Shown: positions 10,803 through 51,263 of the stretch, piece after piece
Layout of the letters: each line of letters begins with the position of its first letter
Numbering within the stretch: the stretch's first letter is position 1
Source of the DNA: Deltaproteobacteria bacterium
Lineage (GTDB): Bacteria > Bdellovibrionota_B > Oligoflexia > Oligoflexales > CAIYRB01
Direction: 5' to 3'
NCBI GenBank assembly: GCA_016874735.1
Contig: VGTI01000004.1
Location: forward strand, 62,001 to 126,000
DNA: 64,000 bases
Made by a program: the position numbers and the translations under genes
The notes under the pieces: model-generated
Told to the model about the DNA's origin: nothing
Database searches by the model: none
What the model saw: the letters and a program-made list of their open reading frames with translations, nothing else

Positions 10803-11705
10803 TTAGAGGGTGGGATCCTGTTTAAAGGTGTTGGTAGGCGAACAAAACTGCGCCACTGGTGCTGTGGACTCAGCCACGCATACTAGAGCGGCTGCCGCTA
10901 TCACAGCACCCAAAGTTTCCAGACGCTTGTCTGCCATCATCAGCCCTCCACCGATAGCACCAGCTAGCGTGCAGCGGTGTTTCAAATCAAGTCCGGACGG
11001 TAATTTACATGCCTCGAAACTGATTTGGTTAGGCGACATATCCTCAGCCACGATGGGATCGGGGGTACACTTGGGCTGATTGTACTTGCCGCAGTTGCTG
11101 TTTACCGAGCGGCTTACCGTACCTATGGCAGCTTCTTGGTTTATGCGATCGATCTCGTCTTGAAGGTTCTGTTGCTCAATTTGAGGCCTCGCTTGTCGCT
11201 CCGGGATATTAAAATACTTAAATGCCCTCCCTACATTCTTTTCGATATCGTAGGGTGATACGTTCTTAGGATTTAAGCCTTGCATGCGCCAAAACGAACC
11301 CAGGGACCGCCAGCGTATCGCCAGTGCCTTAATCTTCGGTAACGTGACCATGAATTTGTCTTTGACGTTTTCTACCCTCATCACGCCATCTAACGTCAGC
11401 GCATCATTGACGACCCGACTCTCGACAGCATTGATGAACTCATGAAAATTGGCACTTGCGAGCTTTTGGATCCGATCCTCAAGCACAAGCCCAGGATCGA
11501 CTCCCTCAGCGCCCCCAACGGTAAGACCGCCGTACAGCTGCTCCGCATTGACTTTGGGCGGAAGTGGCGCTTTCTGAGCGCCGCTGTCCCCGAACGTAGC
11601 CTCAGACGGTTTGCTAGTTTTCGACACCACGGACCCACCGGAACAGGCGCTGCTTGCAAGCAGAACCGCTGAGCTTATGATGGTTACCCACCTAGGTGTC
11701 GTCAT
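10803..11705 (-). CDS. putative lipoprotein of unknown function
   Basis: Protein of 300 residues. The N-terminus MTTPRWVTIISSAVLLASSAC looks like a lipoprotein signal, though Ser at -3 makes the lipobox imperfect. The mature part has a low-complexity start, a charged helical middle (RQARPQIEQQNLQDEIDRIN), and a C-terminal region with six cysteines around a small hydrophobic stretch (LGAVIAAAALVCVAES), suggesting disulfides in the periplasm. I do not recognise a family. It lies downstream of parB in the same direction, separated by 167 bases, and 50 bases before xylB. Confidence 0.6.
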   Translation of the reverse strand: MTTPRWVTIISSAVLLASSACSGGSVVSKTSKPSEATFGDSGAQKAPLPPKVNAEQLYGGLTVGGAEGVDPGLVLEDRIQKLASANFHEFINAVESRVVNDALTLDGVMRVENVKDKFMVTLPKIKALAIRWRSLGSFWRMQGLNPKNVSPYDIEKNVGRAFKYFNIPERQARPQIEQQNLQDEIDRINQEAAIGTVSRSVNSNCGKYNQPKCTPDPIVAEDMSPNQISFEACKLPSGLDLKHRCTLAGAIGGGLMMADKRLETLGAVIAAAALVCVAESTAPVAQFCSPTNTFKQDPTL

Positions 11706-11872: not shown

Positions 11873-13225
11873 CTACCTCATAATACCAAGAAACTTCAGG
11901 GCCTTTTCAATCAGTTGACGCTGCTCTCGCGAAACTTCGCTCAAGTTGCAGAACTCATCTAGTTTCGCCCGCATCTGAGCGCCGCGCTTCAGTTTGAGTT
12001 TTGACTCGCGGTGAGCGGAAAATCGATCGATCAGTGCGTGTAGTTCGGACGTGGTTCTCTCTCCCGCTGCCAACATGTTGAGTAGGAAGCGGGTTGTAAC
12101 CTTAGAACCCAATTCACGCAGACGTTTTTTTACTCCGCCGTCCCACGCCGAAGCTCGGAGATACTTGGCAACCGTACGCTGGTCGGCGTCGAGCAATGCG
12201 GCAATTTCATGCACCGACATACCTTGTCGGGCCAATAGACCGTAGCCGTCGGCCTTGTCGAGAAAATGTAGATCCTCTCGATTTATATTCTCAGCTAGAC
12301 CAGCCAGAGCTCGATGCCGCTCAGACTTGAACTGCTTGAGCGCACACACGACCTCGGTTTGGCCCAGATGCTCTAAAGCAAGTAGTCGACGATGACCAGA
12401 AACACAGACGTAGCGCACACTGGAGTCGTCATGATCGCGCTCGAGTCTTACCTCTACCACCGGAGGATTTTGCAGCCCGATAGTCTCTATAGAGCTGATC
12501 AAGTTCTTGAATTCAGCTCCTTCGCTATCAATGTCCTGACGCAAGTTTTCGTCGCGATTGATTGACGCCAGCGGAAGCTGCAGAAACCCATTCATGCGGG
12601 CAATTGCGAGTGGAGAAACTTCAGCATCAAGTGGTTCATTTACTTCTTGCTGGAGCAGTAGACGCTCGGCTTCGGCTTCCGAAAGACGAACCAAGGAAAC
12701 CTGAAGTTGCTCTCGTCCGAGTTCACTAGCTGCTAAGACTAGGTCGTGGAGCGACAATAGTTGGAATCGCAGATCCTCATCACTGGTGCCAATAATGTTA
12801 ACTAAAGGTCGGCCAGGCTGAGCGGTAGGCGTAGCCTTCAGTATCTTTTTATAAAGATCGATACGTCCACTTTTACGCGCAGCGACCGTTGCTTGCTCAC
12901 TAAGAAGCAGATCCTTGACTAAGATGGGACCCGGTTCCCCTTTCTCGGCGCGGATCATACATCGCTCGAACCGCGAGAGTGTCGGGGCACCTGCGTCTGG
13001 GACATCCCTATTCGGCATCACCGGGCGCACTCGTCCTGCAGCGCTCGCCCCCACACGCTTCGGCTCGGGTTGCCGTAGTAAAGCATCGACTGCCGCTAAT
13101 GCTTTTGATTTGGCGCTGGACTTGGTCGGCTTAGGTGGAGGATTTTTTTTCTGGCGCTCGTTAACTTTTGACGGACTCTTTGAGTTTGCTCTTGGGTTCT
13201 TCTTGTTGCGCTCTATTGCCCGCAT
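11873..13225 (-). CDS. parB: ParB-family partition protein with long N-terminal extension
   Basis: Protein of 450 residues. The ParB core begins only near residue 215 (LPLASINRDENLRQ), followed by VCVSGHRRLLALEHLG at about 274-287, where classical ParB has GERRxRA in the CTP-binding arginine patch; Glu is replaced by His. A helix-turn-helix follows (GMSVHEIAALLDADQRTVAK, about 335-354). The first 210 residues are an extension: a Lys/Pro-rich tail and a charged, partly helical region, not seen in housekeeping ParB. The start ATG 13225 has AGGAGG 5 nt upstream; the parA stop is 10 nt before. It likely binds the palindromes upstream of parA, which is inference. Confidence 0.85.
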   Translation of the reverse strand: MRAIERNKKNPRANSKSPSKVNERQKKNPPPKPTKSSAKSKALAAVDALLRQPEPKRVGASAAGRVRPVMPNRDVPDAGAPTLSRFERCMIRAEKGEPGPILVKDLLLSEQATVAARKSGRIDLYKKILKATPTAQPGRPLVNIIGTSDEDLRFQLLSLHDLVLAASELGREQLQVSLVRLSEAEAERLLLQQEVNEPLDAEVSPLAIARMNGFLQLPLASINRDENLRQDIDSEGAEFKNLISSIETIGLQNPPVVEVRLERDHDDSSVRYVCVSGHRRLLALEHLGQTEVVCALKQFKSERHRALAGLAENINREDLHFLDKADGYGLLARQGMSVHEIAALLDADQRTVAKYLRASAWDGGVKKRLRELGSKVTTRFLLNMLAAGERTTSELHALIDRFSAHRESKLKLKRGAQMRAKLDEFCNLSEVSREQRQLIEKALKFLGIMR

Positions 13226-13235
13226 GGCTACCTCC

Positions 13236-14126
13236 TCAAATCAGATCGTTGGCGGAAGCCTCGGCTGTCGCCTCGGCCAAAACTTGCTCTTCGATAGCTG
13301 CAAAACTTATGGCGCACTCCGATTTAGCGGTGGCGCTTTTAGGCTTGAGTTTTGGATTGATCTCTTTAGCCAAAGCGACGAAGTCCTTTGCAACCTGGGA
13401 GCTGGGCTCAAAACTCACCACAGGTCTAGCCATGAGTTTAGACGAGGATAGTCTTTTCGATGCGGGGATCACGGTTTTAAAGACGGTATAGTTACCCTTC
13501 TTAGCACCAGATCTAATCTTGGCCTCAAGCTTGCGATGGGTGGCTTCAGCTTTGTCGTACTTAGTAACCAATACGCCGAGTAGAGATAAGCTGCGATTGT
13601 AGCGCTTTTTGATTGTTTCTATTTGGAGAAACATATCGGTTAAGCCGACGATGGGGTCCAACTCTGCAAAGAGAGGCACTATGTAGTAATCACTAGCAAC
13701 CAGAGCACTTAGGGTGAGGCAATCCATGTCGGGGTGGGTGTCGAAAATAACGACATCATAATTTCCGATCGCTTTATCGTCTCGCCAGCTGTCGAAAAGG
13801 TACTCTCTTCCAAGCGCACTGTTGCGTGACTTAGCATAGTCGAGCAACGCTCGATGGCTCCCGATCAGATCGACGTTCTTCACCTCAGTGTGATTTATAG
13901 CCTCGAGCACGGTGCTTTTGTCGGTTAACACGGAGTATATATTACCCCCCGTTTCCCCTCTCGCCTGACCTAGACCAGTCGTGGCATTGCCTTGAAAATC
14001 CAAGTCAACCACGAGTACTTTTTTTCCCTGCCCCCCCAGAGCTGCAGCTAAATTGATGACAGCCGTTGTCTTGCCGACACCACCTTTAAGATTGGCAACA
14101 GTAATCATGGTGCACTTGCGTTTCAT
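13236..14126 (-). CDS. parA: ParA-family partition ATPase
   Basis: Protein of 296 residues with the deviant Walker A of ParA/MinD proteins (LKGGVGKTT right after the start), the A' motif VVDLDFQGN and the Walker B region VVIFDTHPDMD. It lacks an N-terminal DNA-binding domain, as in chromosomal and type Ib ParA. ATG 14126 with GGGAG 10 nt upstream is chosen over TTG 14147. It is followed by parB, so the pair should act as a partition or positioning system. The C-terminal 40 residues (after NPKLKPKSATAKS) extend past the core. Whether this is the main chromosomal system or a second one cannot be decided here. Confidence 0.92.
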   Translation of the reverse strand: MKRKCTMITVANLKGGVGKTTAVINLAAALGGQGKKVLVVDLDFQGNATTGLGQARGETGGNIYSVLTDKSTVLEAINHTEVKNVDLIGSHRALLDYAKSRNSALGREYLFDSWRDDKAIGNYDVVIFDTHPDMDCLTLSALVASDYYIVPLFAELDPIVGLTDMFLQIETIKKRYNRSLSLLGVLVTKYDKAEATHRKLEAKIRSGAKKGNYTVFKTVIPASKRLSSSKLMARPVVSFEPSSQVAKDFVALAKEINPKLKPKSATAKSECAISFAAIEEQVLAEATAEASANDLI

Positions 14127-14217
14127 CGCGACAAGTCTCCCAGACAAAATGGTTTAACAAATTGTATTTGTTTTGAAGATGGTATCTGGGGTGAGATGAA
14201 CTTGTAAACAGACAAAA

Positions 14218-14268
14218 GTGAAACCGTTTCACGCAAACCGCACAATGCGATCGGTGAAACGGTTTCAC
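14218..14268. repeat. pair of mirror-image 15-bp palindromes upstream of parA (candidate centromere/operator)
   Basis: GTGAAACCGTTTCAC at 14218-14232 and GTGAAACGGTTTCAC at 14254-14268. Each is a perfect 7-bp inverted repeat around one base, and each is the reverse complement of the other; centres are 36 bp apart. Between them lies a smaller palindrome, CGCACAATGCG (14239-14249). The half-sites GTGAAAC/GTTTCAC are those of the classical parS (GTTTCAC-GTGAAAC) but in swapped order. Position directly upstream of parAB suggests a ParB or autorepressor site. On the minus strand the whole unit could also fold as a 15-bp stem followed by TTTTGTCTG, so a terminator for the M13 peptidase gene is the main alternative. 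Confidence 0.65.
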
Positions 14269-14284
14269 TCGAGGGTCATTATTT

Positions 14285-16327
14285 CTACCAAACCCGACAG
14301 CGGTTACGGGGATTCATTGCGGCACCTTCCTTGCATGAGAAGGCTTTGCTGAATTCGTCGTAGTTACTCAGGGGACCATTTACACGGTACCTTGCTGGGG
14401 AATGCGGATCAGTGGTGGCCCTTAGCCGCGCCATCTCTGGTCGCATCTTTTGACACCAGGTCTGGGCATAGCCAATAAAGAATTGCTGAGCGGGGGTAAA
14501 GTCTTCGATGGATTCAGCCTCTCTTGACGCCGTCTCTTTCCATGCTTCATAAGCTAGTCGAATACCGCCCTGATCAGCAATGTTCTCCCCCAGGGTCAAT
14601 TTGCCGTTCACATGCAAATCATCGATAGCCACAAACTTCGAATATTGATCCACAATACACTCTGCACGACTGTCAAATTCTTTGCCTACCTTCGGGCTCC
14701 ACCAGTCACGCAGATTCCCCTTAGCGTCGAATTTCCGACCCTGATCATCAAAGCCATGCGTTAATTCGTGCCCCATGACCATACCTATCCCGCCAAAATT
14801 TAAAGCTGCGGGACGGCCCTCTTGGTAAAATGGTGCCTGCAGAATTCCAGCTGGAAAAACCATCTTGTTGTTATCGGCGCTGTAGTAGGCATTGACCATG
14901 GATGGAGGCATGTGCCATTCTCCGCGATCGACCGGCCGTCCAATTTTATCAAGGTAAAATCTTGCATTGAAAGTTGCCGCACTTACCGCGTTGGCATAAT
15001 AACTTTGCCTATTGATAGTTAGGCGCGAGAAATCACGCCATTTATCTGGATAACCGATCTGATTCACGATGGTATGAAGCTTTTGATCAGCTTGATCTCT
15101 AGTGGCTTGATCCATCCAGTCAAGTGCCTTAAGGCGCTCACCCATGGCGATCTCAATAGCTTTGATCATCTGTTGAGCTTCAACCTTCGCCTTTGGGCTA
15201 AATGTCTTAGCTACGAACACCTTCCCCAAGGGCTGACCCAAAGCTTCGAGTGTACTATTTACGCATCGTTTCCACCTGGGTTTGATCTGTGGCTGCCCCG
15301 TCAGAGTCTTGGCAACAAAATTAAAATCCTCCTCCACGAAGACCTTACTGAGTGCTGAAGCGCCCGCGTGCAGGCCGTGCCACCGTAGATACGTTCGCCA
15401 CTGCTCGAACGTTAGGCTCTGCAGCAGCTTCTCGACACCGGCAAAGAACTTAGGGACGTCGACGTTGATCGCAGTGAGGCCGGGATACCCCAAAGTGGCA
15501 AAATAAGTCGTCCAATCGAAGCTGGGGGCTAACTTTACTAAACCATCCCGATCAAGTCGGTTATACATCGCATTGGGATCGCGGCGTACCACTTTATCTG
15601 CCGATACTTTTGCGAGTTCTGTTTCTATTTTGATTACGGTATCTGCATCTCTCACGGCTTGTTGATCACTCTCGCCGTACAGCTTCAGCATGGTTTGCAC
15701 ATGAGACCGAAACTTGGCTCGAATCTCGGCAAATCTTTTGGAGTCCGACAGGTAATAATCGCGATCTGGAAGGGTTAAACCACCTTGATCCGCATCCGCA
15801 ATCATTTGCGACGAATCTTTATAGTCCTGCCCAGCTCCAAAACCAAAGATGGCTCCTGCGCCCTCTAGGTGATAGCGTGCTACCTGCACGGCCAAGGCTT
15901 TTTTATCTTTGATCACCTCAACAGCATCAAGACGGCGCTTTAGCGCACCAAGCGATTTCGTCTCAATGCCGTCTTCATCCATGCAGGATGCGTAATAGTC
16001 ACCAATGAGTTTGGCCTCACGATCGCCGACGGGTAAATTGCCGGCGGCATACTGCTCAAGCGCGGATCTTAATAGTTCTTCGTTCTGCTTAGTTAATGTC
16101 GCAAATCCACGCGACCATTCTGGCCGATCGTCAGGTATTTGCGCTTGGTTTATCCACCCACCGCATGCGAACTGATAAAAGTCTTCACACGCATCAGTGG
16201 ACCTGTCTAGATCGACAGGATCAATAGCTGCAGCCACAGCCATTGGTGCCTGCGAGGCGGACAATATTACACTAAGGGCTAGCGGTAGGGAGCTTAGTCC
16301 CAAGGGGCGATAACTGCTCAATTTCAT
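14285..16327 (-). CDS. M13-family zinc metallopeptidase (neprilysin/PepO-like)
   Basis: Protein of 680 residues with an N-terminal signal peptide (through about AVAAA), so it is exported. The zinc site is complete: HELTH at residues 520-524, with the third ligand E581 in GENIADQGG. The family substrate-binding stretch VNAYYSADNNKMVFPAGILQ precedes it, and the C-terminus CRVW matches the usual CxxW ending. N-terminal DRSTDACEDFYQFACGGW is also characteristic. It cleaves oligopeptides; many diderm bacteria have several copies. Its gene is transcribed away from the histidine kinase and stops about 16 bases before the palindrome block. Confidence 0.95.
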   Translation of the reverse strand: MKLSSYRPLGLSSLPLALSVILSASQAPMAVAAAIDPVDLDRSTDACEDFYQFACGGWINQAQIPDDRPEWSRGFATLTKQNEELLRSALEQYAAGNLPVGDREAKLIGDYYASCMDEDGIETKSLGALKRRLDAVEVIKDKKALAVQVARYHLEGAGAIFGFGAGQDYKDSSQMIADADQGGLTLPDRDYYLSDSKRFAEIRAKFRSHVQTMLKLYGESDQQAVRDADTVIKIETELAKVSADKVVRRDPNAMYNRLDRDGLVKLAPSFDWTTYFATLGYPGLTAINVDVPKFFAGVEKLLQSLTFEQWRTYLRWHGLHAGASALSKVFVEEDFNFVAKTLTGQPQIKPRWKRCVNSTLEALGQPLGKVFVAKTFSPKAKVEAQQMIKAIEIAMGERLKALDWMDQATRDQADQKLHTIVNQIGYPDKWRDFSRLTINRQSYYANAVSAATFNARFYLDKIGRPVDRGEWHMPPSMVNAYYSADNNKMVFPAGILQAPFYQEGRPAALNFGGIGMVMGHELTHGFDDQGRKFDAKGNLRDWWSPKVGKEFDSRAECIVDQYSKFVAIDDLHVNGKLTLGENIADQGGIRLAYEAWKETASREAESIEDFTPAQQFFIGYAQTWCQKMRPEMARLRATTDPHSPARYRVNGPLSNYDEFSKAFSCKEGAAMNPRNRCRVW

Positions 16328-48253: not shown

Positions 48254-49432
48254 TTAATCGATGTAGTTACCGTTTTTTATCTTATCGATAATGATCTTTT
48301 CCATCATCTGAGGGTCTCGAGGATCGACCGAAATAAATGACTGCTGTTCACAGCGGCGTTTATTTTTGACGAGCCAATCCAGAATGCCACGCAGCTCTTT
48401 GTTTCGTTTGTCTTTAAAGAATGGATCATTGCTCAATGCGTCTCGGGCCTTTTTAAGAGCCCTCGCCTCTTGTAAGTCGCTCTCTTTTACTGGGTAGTCC
48501 ACCAGATCGTACTTGGCTATGTCCTCTGGCAAGACCCCCAAAAACTTCACCTCTGGCGCGCAAAAATCAGAGTTCCGTATTAGCGACGCTGCAGATCCAG
48601 CTCTTAACGTCCGATAAATGTTTTGCATCGTGTAAGCGTCAAGATCACCAAAAAAGAATAGCGGTACTCGCAACTGCTCTTGAATTCGTTTGACCCAAGC
48701 CCTTACTGCATTAGACGGCACTCCCTGTGCACCAATAAGAATGGAGTTGTGTCTCTTGGTAAAGCCATTAGCCACCAGAGTATTTGCCGTGCCTTGAGAC
48801 TCAATGATCAGGCAGAAATCAATTTTTTCTTTTGCCCGAAGTGTCAGATTCTGCGGGCGGTTTTTCGGTTGATAGGGCGCAGTGCCGAGGGTCGAAAGGT
48901 CTATCGTCGACTGAGTGCCGTCTAGCTCGGTTTCAACCACAACTAGCTGTTTCGAGTAGGTTTGACCACCGCGATCATCGGCAACGCAGTTTAGCTCCTC
49001 ACGATATGCCTCCATCATCTCGCAGATGAAATCGATTACGGAATCAGACTCATCTTGATCCTGGAAGTCTAGCGGCCTCAGCTTTGTCTCATGCTTTACT
49101 AGGCCTTTAGCGACGTAATAGAGCTCACGCTTAGTATTGATGTTAGCGATCTCGACGTTTCTGAGGAGAATTTCGAGCATGAAAATTGCTCGTGACATTT
49201 TTTTGACTGAGCTTACGTTAAGTTCCGAGGACACCTTTTTATTGCCTGGGGTTAAGTAGCCAACCTTCGGACTATATTGGGAATTATCTAAAGAACACTT
49301 TGTGGCAGTAAGCACGGGCCTTTTTGCCTTCTCTAAATCTGAAAGCATGCGCTCACATAGTTCTGTGCCCATCGAAATGATTTCAGATTGTTTCTTAGCT
49401 ACGCGCTTTGCTGATTGTTGAACTTTTGCCAT
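48254..49432 (-). CDS. top6A: DNA topoisomerase VI subunit A (Spo11-like)
   Basis: Protein of 392 residues, the DNA-cleaving subunit of type IIB topoisomerase. The winged-helix (5Y-CAP) domain carries the nucleophile in NTKRELYYVAKG (Y105/Y106, most likely Y106). The Toprim domain has E211 in LIIESQGTANTL, the loop GAQGVPSNAVRAW, and D263/D265 in FFFGDLDAY, then APEVKFLGVLPEDI. All catalytic positions of the family are present, so it should be active. The start ATG 49432 is one base after the subunit B stop. This family is typical of archaea and plants and rare in bacteria. Confidence 0.95.
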   Translation of the reverse strand: MAKVQQSAKRVAKKQSEIISMGTELCERMLSDLEKAKRPVLTATKCSLDNSQYSPKVGYLTPGNKKVSSELNVSSVKKMSRAIFMLEILLRNVEIANINTKRELYYVAKGLVKHETKLRPLDFQDQDESDSVIDFICEMMEAYREELNCVADDRGGQTYSKQLVVVETELDGTQSTIDLSTLGTAPYQPKNRPQNLTLRAKEKIDFCLIIESQGTANTLVANGFTKRHNSILIGAQGVPSNAVRAWVKRIQEQLRVPLFFFGDLDAYTMQNIYRTLRAGSAASLIRNSDFCAPEVKFLGVLPEDIAKYDLVDYPVKESDLQEARALKKARDALSNDPFFKDKRNKELRGILDWLVKNKRRCEQQSFISVDPRDPQMMEKIIIDKIKNGNYID

Positions 49433-49433
49433 A

Positions 49434-51263
49434 TCAAACTTTTCCCTTGCCAGACTTGGCTGCTGGCTTCACTGGCGCTGGAGCGGCAGCATCAGTTCCC
49501 GTGAACTGTTCGTCCTGATCCAAACCCTCGAAGAATCCGGCCAAACGCGATTTTTTCTCCTCAAGGTAACTGGCCAAACGGCCCTCCGCATCTGCCAGAT
49601 CTTTTTTGATTCCTTTTGTGTCTTTTTCAAGAATCCTCGCAAGACCCGCAGTAGCTGCCTGCTTCCTTTCGTCTGAGGCTCCGAGGATTCTGCCCAATGT
49701 CTCCACCAAGATCGGACCGAACTGTTCGATGTGCTGGACCCTTTGCTCCAATTCACCGGCCTTGTGTTCGCGACTGAGATAACGTGAGAGGCGCTGACCC
49801 GTCTGCATGAGTGCACGCCGCAATTCCTCAACAAGCTCGTCAGACGCATCGATTGTTTCTTTCGATGCATTCTTAAACTTGATGAAGGGAGACACGACGC
49901 TTACAGCCACAATGTAGGGGCCTAAAGGCAAACCATTTTTGGGCTGCTTAAGACCATATGACCTCCAATTTACTGAGGTAATAGCCTTAACTATGGCGCA
50001 GGAGGCTTTATCAAACTGGAGCGGCACACGGTTAGCAAATCGTAGGACCTGCACTTGCTCCTCGTTATCTTCTCCGCGTCGCTCCCGTAAACGGGCAATC
50101 GCTACCTCTACCTGCAACGGTTTGAAATCACAAATGACTGGTTTACGCGAAAGAACAGCGAAAAAGTCTATATCTCCAATGCGCCTAATACTCAGTGCCA
50201 GTCCATCCTCACCGACCGACAACACGGATGTGGTGGCTGGTGGCAGCAGGTCGACCGCTTGTATGGCAGAAAATAAAGCCTTGAACTCATCATCAGGTAA
50301 CGAGTCAACAAAACTGTCTAGCACCTTACGCTTGAGACCCTTTTGGCTCACTAGGTCCTGCAGAACCTTATCTGTGACACGTGAAAATCCCCTTTTCAGC
50401 CATACACTTGTCTTCATCCTGCCAAATAGACGGGCGTGCGACATGAACTCACCAAGCTTCATCGTGTGAGGATGGGGTTCGGTTGCTTGAGGCACAACGG
50501 GTACAGTGTTGACTACTCGATCGACGGACGCTGAGGGCACATCACTAATTTCGTAGTGTAAAGTCATGTGTGGATTTAACAGGATTGTGCTGCGTATGTA
50601 GTTCAGCAGGCCACCTTCACCGTTAAGCTGGATCCTTCCATCAAGCTTAAACTCGATACTTGTGCCGTGTGGACTTGACCATTCCACCGTTCCTTTGTCG
50701 CGCAGAATTCCTTTGTTATTCTTCAGGTCCATATCAACTACACACGTAAATGCCTTGCGTGCACTTTTTGTCTTTGTAACTACCCTGGCGCCGGTAGCCG
50801 TGGTCTGCATGGCCCAAGTAGTCGCGGCTGAAATCCCGATTCCTTGCTGACCGCGAGAACAGCGGCCACGTCCGAATTTAGATGACGCTAGGTATTCTCC
50901 GAATACTTTGGCGACATCATCCGGATCGATTCCCGGACCATTGTCTTCCACGTATATTCGAATTTGATCGGTATTTTTTAGTGTCCCAGGTCCAAGCTTT
51001 TCAACTTGCAGACGAATCTCAGGTAAGATCCCGGCATCTTCACATGCATCTAACGAGTTGTCTAAGGCCTCCTTTAGCGTTGTGAGAACCGCTTTCACCG
51101 GCGACGAAAAACCAACCTGCTGGAGGTTTTTGGCGAAGTACTCCGCTGTGCTACTCGTCGTAATCTGTTTCGCCGACTTACGAACGCGGGAGATTACTTC
51201 GGCCGAGGCATCGACCTCTGCCGCCAATTTTTTTGTAACCTTTTTGACCTGTTTTTTAGCCAT
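49434..51263 (-). CDS. top6B: DNA topoisomerase VI subunit B (GHKL ATPase)
   Basis: Protein of 609 residues. The GHKL ATPase has EALDNSLDACEDAGILPE (catalytic Glu at 65), VEDNGPGIDPDD and RGQQGIGISAATTWAM. The transducer domain has SVNWRSYGLKQPKNGLPLGP, holding the switch lysine, and SPFIKFKNASKETIDA. A helix-two-turn-helix region lies between. The archaeal protein is about 530 residues; here a C-terminal charged region and an Ala/Pro/Lys tail (AAAPAPVKPAAKSGKGKV) add length. It precedes top6A with one base between them, the usual archaeal order. Confidence 0.96.
   Translation of the reverse strand: MAKKQVKKVTKKLAAEVDASAEVISRVRKSAKQITTSSTAEYFAKNLQQVGFSSPVKAVLTTLKEALDNSLDACEDAGILPEIRLQVEKLGPGTLKNTDQIRIYVEDNGPGIDPDDVAKVFGEYLASSKFGRGRCSRGQQGIGISAATTWAMQTTATGARVVTKTKSARKAFTCVVDMDLKNNKGILRDKGTVEWSSPHGTSIEFKLDGRIQLNGEGGLLNYIRSTILLNPHMTLHYEISDVPSASVDRVVNTVPVVPQATEPHPHTMKLGEFMSHARLFGRMKTSVWLKRGFSRVTDKVLQDLVSQKGLKRKVLDSFVDSLPDDEFKALFSAIQAVDLLPPATTSVLSVGEDGLALSIRRIGDIDFFAVLSRKPVICDFKPLQVEVAIARLRERRGEDNEEQVQVLRFANRVPLQFDKASCAIVKAITSVNWRSYGLKQPKNGLPLGPYIVAVSVVSPFIKFKNASKETIDASDELVEELRRALMQTGQRLSRYLSREHKAGELEQRVQHIEQFGPILVETLGRILGASDERKQAATAGLARILEKDTKGIKKDLADAEGRLASYLEEKKSRLAGFFEGLDQDEQFTGTDAAAPAPVKPAAKSGKGKV

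Follow-up and report, generated by a model that had tools for sequence, protein, structure and literature searches.

The closest described relatives of the locus reported here pair a ParB-family protein with a palindrome that has a single central base. KorB of the IncP plasmid RK2 recognizes the operator OB, TTTTAGC-G-GCTAAAA, and its proximal sites are found 4-10 bp upstream of the target promoters (PMC11790492). On chromosome II of Vibrio cholerae, parS2 is NTTTACANTGTAAAN, a 15-bp palindrome with a one-base centre (PMC7022226). The locus examined here, parAB2, shares with KorB/OB a ParB-family protein of the CTP-clamp type, a perfect one-base-centred palindrome and promoter-proximal sites, whereas KorB/OB is plasmid-borne, with numerous OB sites and KorA as co-repressor, and uses another site sequence. 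ParB2 in turn differs from KorB in its extra N-terminal domain and its location on the main chromosome. As with parS2 and its ParB2 in V. cholerae, we are dealing with a second system that is apparently orthogonal to the canonical parS of the same cell; there, however, the ten sites lie mostly near the origin of the second replicon, whereas parAB2 has two or three sites clustered at parA2 on the chromosome with the ribosomal-protein genes. In the canonical ParABS system (TGTTTCACGTGAAACA), too, sites cluster upstream of the parA gene of a parAB operon, but canonical parS lacks a central base and its half-sites stand in the opposite order.

The locus lies in a stretch of 64,000 nucleotides (the window) from a 4.65-Mb draft genome that is 97% complete in 166 contigs. 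Two copies of the motif GTGAAAC-N-GTTTCAC, 36 bp apart, have an M13 peptidase gene on one side (stop at 14285) and parA on the other (ATG at 14126), and peptidase, parA and parB are all on the minus strand. The first-pass annotation had described two perfect palindromes, reverse complements of each other, upstream of parAB and downstream of the peptidase, and the coordinates and strands bore this out: GTGAAACCGTTTCAC and GTGAAACGGTTTCAC are mutual reverse complements with the centre bases C and G. The smaller palindrome that it had placed almost centrally between them is found at 14240-14248, its centre at 14244 against a midpoint of about 14243 for the two 15-mers. The features are as follows.

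14254 to 14268, no strand: distal site (farther from the parA2 promoter), candidate ParB2 site, GTGAAACGGTTTCAC on the plus strand
14233 to 14253, no strand: spacer of 21 bp that contains the small palindrome GCA-CAA-TGC; unconserved, relatives agreeing with it at 5-7 of 21 positions
14218 to 14232, no strand: proximal site (nearer the parA2 promoter), candidate ParB2 site, GTGAAACCGTTTCAC on the plus strand
14203 to 14208, minus strand: predicted parA2 -35, TTTACA, its position kept in the alignment of relatives
14179 to 14184, minus strand: predicted parA2 -10, TACCAT, at 18-bp spacing from the -35, its position likewise kept
13236 to 14126, minus strand: parA2, ParA-family ATPase (AAA_31, Walker KGGVGKTT, no N-terminal HTH)
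11873 to 13225, minus strand: parB2, ParB-family protein of 450 aa
12635 to 12973, minus strand: N-terminal domain of ParB2 (residues 85-197), a probable second ParB/Srx fold on moderate evidence, without GxRR or ENxxR
12146 to 12613, minus strand: ParB/Srx domain (GHRR and ENINRED) plus HTH of ParB2 (residues 205-360)
10803 to 11705, minus strand: putative lipoprotein gene downstream of parB2, confined to genomes with parAB2 and, among the congeners, to those carrying it

We placed parAB2 on the main chromosome because rpoA, rpsD, secY, the genes for ribosomal proteins L16 and L3, mfd, NADH dehydrogenase subunits and tRNA-His share its 64 kb. The gene order flanking parAB2 is kept on both sides in two congeners; two other genomes (G003 and G006) retain the neighbour genes and have no parAB2 segment. 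An ordinary ParABS system was found elsewhere in the genome, on contig C3, with parB at 185356-186300 and parA at 186311-187144, followed by a parS cluster, dnaA and dnaN (the last two named from their translations). The cluster, beside dnaA, comprises five canonical parS at 187256-188077, two perfect and three with one mismatch, and in the congeners canonical parS also occurs on the same contigs as their own short ParB. Within the window, no match to the TGTTTCACGTGAAACA-like 16-mer was found at up to three mismatches. Since a canonical ParABS sits at oriC elsewhere in the genome, the parAB of the window is a second, chromosomal ParABS. KorB proper, which would call for the operator TTTAGCSGCTAAA and an IncP plasmid context with KorA, was considered and rejected, since the site differs and the rpoA, secY and ribosomal-protein neighbourhood is chromosomal. 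It was also noted that genes for the A and B subunits of topoisomerase VI adjoin mfd at 48254-51263, on a bacterial chromosome.

We assessed how specific the 15-mer is to this place. It is expected zero times in dinucleotide shuffles of the window, and about 0.017 exact copies per genome are expected by chance. A genome-wide count, proposed beforehand in the first-pass annotation, returned exactly two copies, the same number at up to one mismatch; both lie 5' of parA2, with no random scatter. Orthologous parAB2 was found in three congeners, with ParA2 86-92% and ParB2 69-76% identical, and perfect 15-mers stand at the equivalent position in each (two in G004, three each in G002 and G005). This gives 10 perfect sites over four species, the window's included, with a centre that is always C or G; G002 and G005 are a closely related pair, so that few of these conservation events are independent. 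The 15-mer is absent from G001 and G003, the congeners without parB2. Exact copies elsewhere among 56 genomes were limited to three in G006 and G017, all with A or T at the centre, where about one was expected by chance, and the two inspected fall inside ORFs. In a viral collection, the 15-mer occurred among the matches listed as isolated single copies only, and six weak ParB2 relatives on viral contigs have no site in common. Plasmid records searched for similar DNA gave no meaningful match, and the relatives of ParB2 on plasmids reach only about 30% identity.

In the alignment of the four species, the sites are identical at every specified position, while the inter-site spacer matches at chance level and the 16 bp upstream of the sites match at 5-6 positions. 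Synonymous sites of parA2 and parB2 are saturated between the divergent species and amino-acid change is small. With the site letters fixed, the spacer at chance identity and the synonymous sites saturated, it is the base sequence of the palindromes, and not that of the spacer, which selection maintains. This bears on whether the two sites work as RNA, as the long stem of an intrinsic terminator for the M13 peptidase gene, which the first-pass annotation had offered as one option. The window does hold a very stable hairpin here (-37.3 kcal/mol, z -5.8), also found in the relatives, and TTTTGTCTG comes after the stem in the window and in G004; any palindrome in two copies, however, folds in this way. 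A terminator would have no need of 15-mers that are each self-palindromic, and what is conserved is primary sequence, not pairing. G002 and G005 lack the U-tract and have a third copy, no such stem could form at related loci where the palindrome is single, and a terminator scan, an intrinsic terminator being marked by a conserved G+C-rich stem with a U-tract, found none. The terminator thus accounts for the strong hairpin but leaves unexplained the conservation of the letters, the third copy and absent U-tract of G002 and G005, and the single palindromes of the related loci, and we consider it very unlikely; since a U-rich tail is confined to the window and G004, termination would be a side effect at most.

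The sites stand in a consistent relation to the promoter. The predicted sigma70-like parA promoter starts 9 bp past the proximal site, and in each of the four species 8-9 bp separate that site from the parA2 -35. The genes parA2 and parB2 lie on the same strand, 10 bp apart. It was noted separately that the parA2 leader (14126-14178) is conserved and has an imperfect inverted repeat, AACAAAT-aca-ATTTGTT, directly downstream of the -10. Sites of LacI-type repressors also resemble GAAACnGTTTC. An operator of such a regulator, perhaps linked to the xylose isomerase-like and xylulokinase-like genes 3-6 kb away (named from translations, not from a family search), would fit the general resemblance of the 15-mer to sugar-repressor operators. 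We hold this to be highly improbable, as the 15-mer occurs at no sugar gene and at no other promoter, and its presence tracks parAB2. Its 13-bp core, TGAAACNGTTTCA, was not found in the bacterial literature searched, either as a LacI-type operator or otherwise.

The proteins encoded beside the sites are those of a ParABS system. ParA2 matches AAA_31 (E 7.8e-44) and has the deviant Walker A motif KGGVGKTT of ParABS ATPases, and the palindromes would supply the system-specific inverted repeats expected near parAB. Sequence matches of ParB2 are to ParB/Spo0J/Noc chains, and it has the CTPase-type ParB/Srx domain of ParABS proteins (GxxRR and ENxxR, here in GHRR and ENINRED) followed by the HTH. 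Against the NCBIfam ParB/RepB/Spo0J domain model it scored 54.7, slightly under the curated cut-off of 58.45. In an AlphaFold2 model of ParB2 (mean pLDDT 69), the top structural match was KorB of RK2 (8qa9; Z 14.0 over 180 residues, rmsd 4.2), followed by Noc and ParB. The N-terminal domain inside this full model aligns with Srx-fold proteins at Z 8.0-8.4. When residues 85-197 were modelled in isolation (pLDDT 65), the top 26 rows of the VIA-align comparison were all ParB/Srx-fold proteins (Z 4.7-7.0), with unrelated proteins at or below 3.2; Foldseek with the isolated domain gave no E below 0.001, and a profile comparison for an N-terminal ParB/Srx duplication was not significant (hhalign P 0.52). 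With moderate confidence, these residues are probably a second ParB/Srx-fold domain that lacks the CTP motifs.

The half-sites of the 15-mer had been described as canonical parS half-sites that have changed places around a one-base centre, and letter for letter this is true. Read outward from the centre, however, the order is GTTTCAC here and GTGAAAC in canonical parS. In canonical ParB, the residues that contact parS are G170, K171, S172, R173 and N178 (PMC7383237). The parS-reading segment GKERSTVTN of ParB1, the chromosomal protein, aligns with DADQRTVAK in ParB2, which differs at the positions aligned to G170, K171, R173 and N178. One would therefore not expect ParB2 to recognize the canonical half-site; with a different base order outward from the centre, the swapped half-sites probably resemble canonical parS in their letters alone. 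The recognition helix QRTVAKYLRAS is common to the four species bar single A/S or S/G changes. That ParB1 reads the palindromes as rearranged canonical parS, for which the equal half-site letters would speak, is extremely unlikely: intact canonical sites adjoin ParB1 at oriC, and congeners without parB2 retain ParB1 yet have no 15-mers.

On genomic grounds, then, the 15-mers are very probably the cognate site of ParB2. This assignment follows from their position, their genome-wide exclusivity, their conservation alongside parAB2 and, in ParB2, a ParB fold that carries CTP-type motifs, the specificity being deduced from genomic association. We strongly favour a reading in which the palindromes are clamp-loading sites of ParB2, which would autoregulate parAB2 through them, and in which the same sites would double as a centromere. 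A ParB2 dimer would dock on each palindrome through its HTH. CTP would then close the ParB/Srx domains so that ParB2 slides off as a clamp, as in other members of the family (PMC11790492, PMC10770331). Bound or sliding ParB2 would lower the transcription of its own operon in the manner of KorB; negative autoregulation is predicted from the distance of only 8-9 bp between the proximal site and the downstream -35, with KorB as precedent. ParA2 would move the same ParB2-DNA complex as its cargo, which would make the site also the parS of the second system.

The first-pass annotation's proposal of a ParB-type site or autorepressor operator is thus favoured by the promoter position, the exclusivity, the conservation in four species and the absence of the 15-mer where parB2 is missing, while the derivation from a rearranged canonical parS fell away. 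Its wording of a new type of ParB centromere was too strong, since one-base-centred ParB sites are known in KorB OB and Vibrio parS2. What is new is the sequence of the site, the presence of a second system on the primary chromosome and possibly the N-terminal domain of ParB2. The parAB2 of the main chromosome is probably a descendant of a plasmid partition module. A broader and more speculative reading, which we think doubtful, sees parAB2 as a vertically kept second ParABS next to the ribosomal-protein and rpoA genes of the primary chromosome, equipped with a one-base-centred centromere of its own and with a ParB in which only one of two tandem ParB/Srx folds bears the CTP motifs. Its task would be to position or segregate another region of the chromosome, or else KorB-like silencing on the chromosome, and the extra domain would gate the clamp. 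ParB2 and GTGAAACNGTTTCAC form a candidate protein-site pair, apparently orthogonal to canonical parS within one cell, that should help in studying changes in the spacing and order of ParB half-sites. With a canonical ParABS at oriC, the presence of a second one on the chromosome also raises the question of what parAB2 moves or silences.

We searched related loci blindly for palindromes, with the recovery of canonical parS beside chromosomal ParBs as positive control. TGTACAT-N-ATGTACA (TGTACATNATGTACA) was found upstream of parA in five genomes of one genus, each of which holds exactly one copy; a sixth genome (G011) also has a single copy, but not near its parB matches. In G022 and G023, TGGTACAC-S-GTGTACCA (TGGTACACSGTGTACCA) flanks or ends parAB. 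Accessory or plasmid ParABS systems of Oligoflexia-like relatives (G022, G023, G027, G033 and G036) resemble parAB2 in their ParB (23-28% identical) and in having one-base-centred palindromes, whereas the palindromes themselves are others and the N-terminal extension of 200 aa is missing. In a tree, the accessory ParBs stand apart from the canonical chromosomal ParBs, with long branches that leave the details unsure. Accessory ParBs of this bacterial group are thus repeatedly paired with one-base-centred sites, an independent replication of the parAB2 design.

These loci also bear on the role of the sites. By sequence, an operator alone and an operator that is also a centromere look alike. ParB2, or ParA2 with ParB2, may autoregulate parAB2 through sites that are an operator and nothing else, with partition or another ParA2 task served elsewhere or without a centromere. 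The sites are confined to the parA2 promoter, and oriC already has a canonical ParABS, so that a second centromere is not obviously needed. In the accessory loci of G022 and G023, however, palindromes are found not just upstream of parA but also where parB ends or downstream of it, which suits a centromere, and ParB sites close to parAB often act as both operator and centromere, as in RK2 and P1, which also counts against an operator only. We regard the operator-only role as possible but rather unlikely.

Further palindromes were noted at accessory loci. In the accessory parAB of another family in the order, 29-bp perfect one-base-centred palindromes surround TGTACATNATGTACA (L018 1630-1658 and L019 2858-2886). 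The centre-less even palindrome GGGGAACGCGTTCCCC is common to two accessory ParABS systems, that of G044 and one on a Pigmentibacter ruber plasmid, and occurs upstream of parA and inside the parB end (L012 439-454 and 2095-2110; L168 1930-1945 and 3591-3608).
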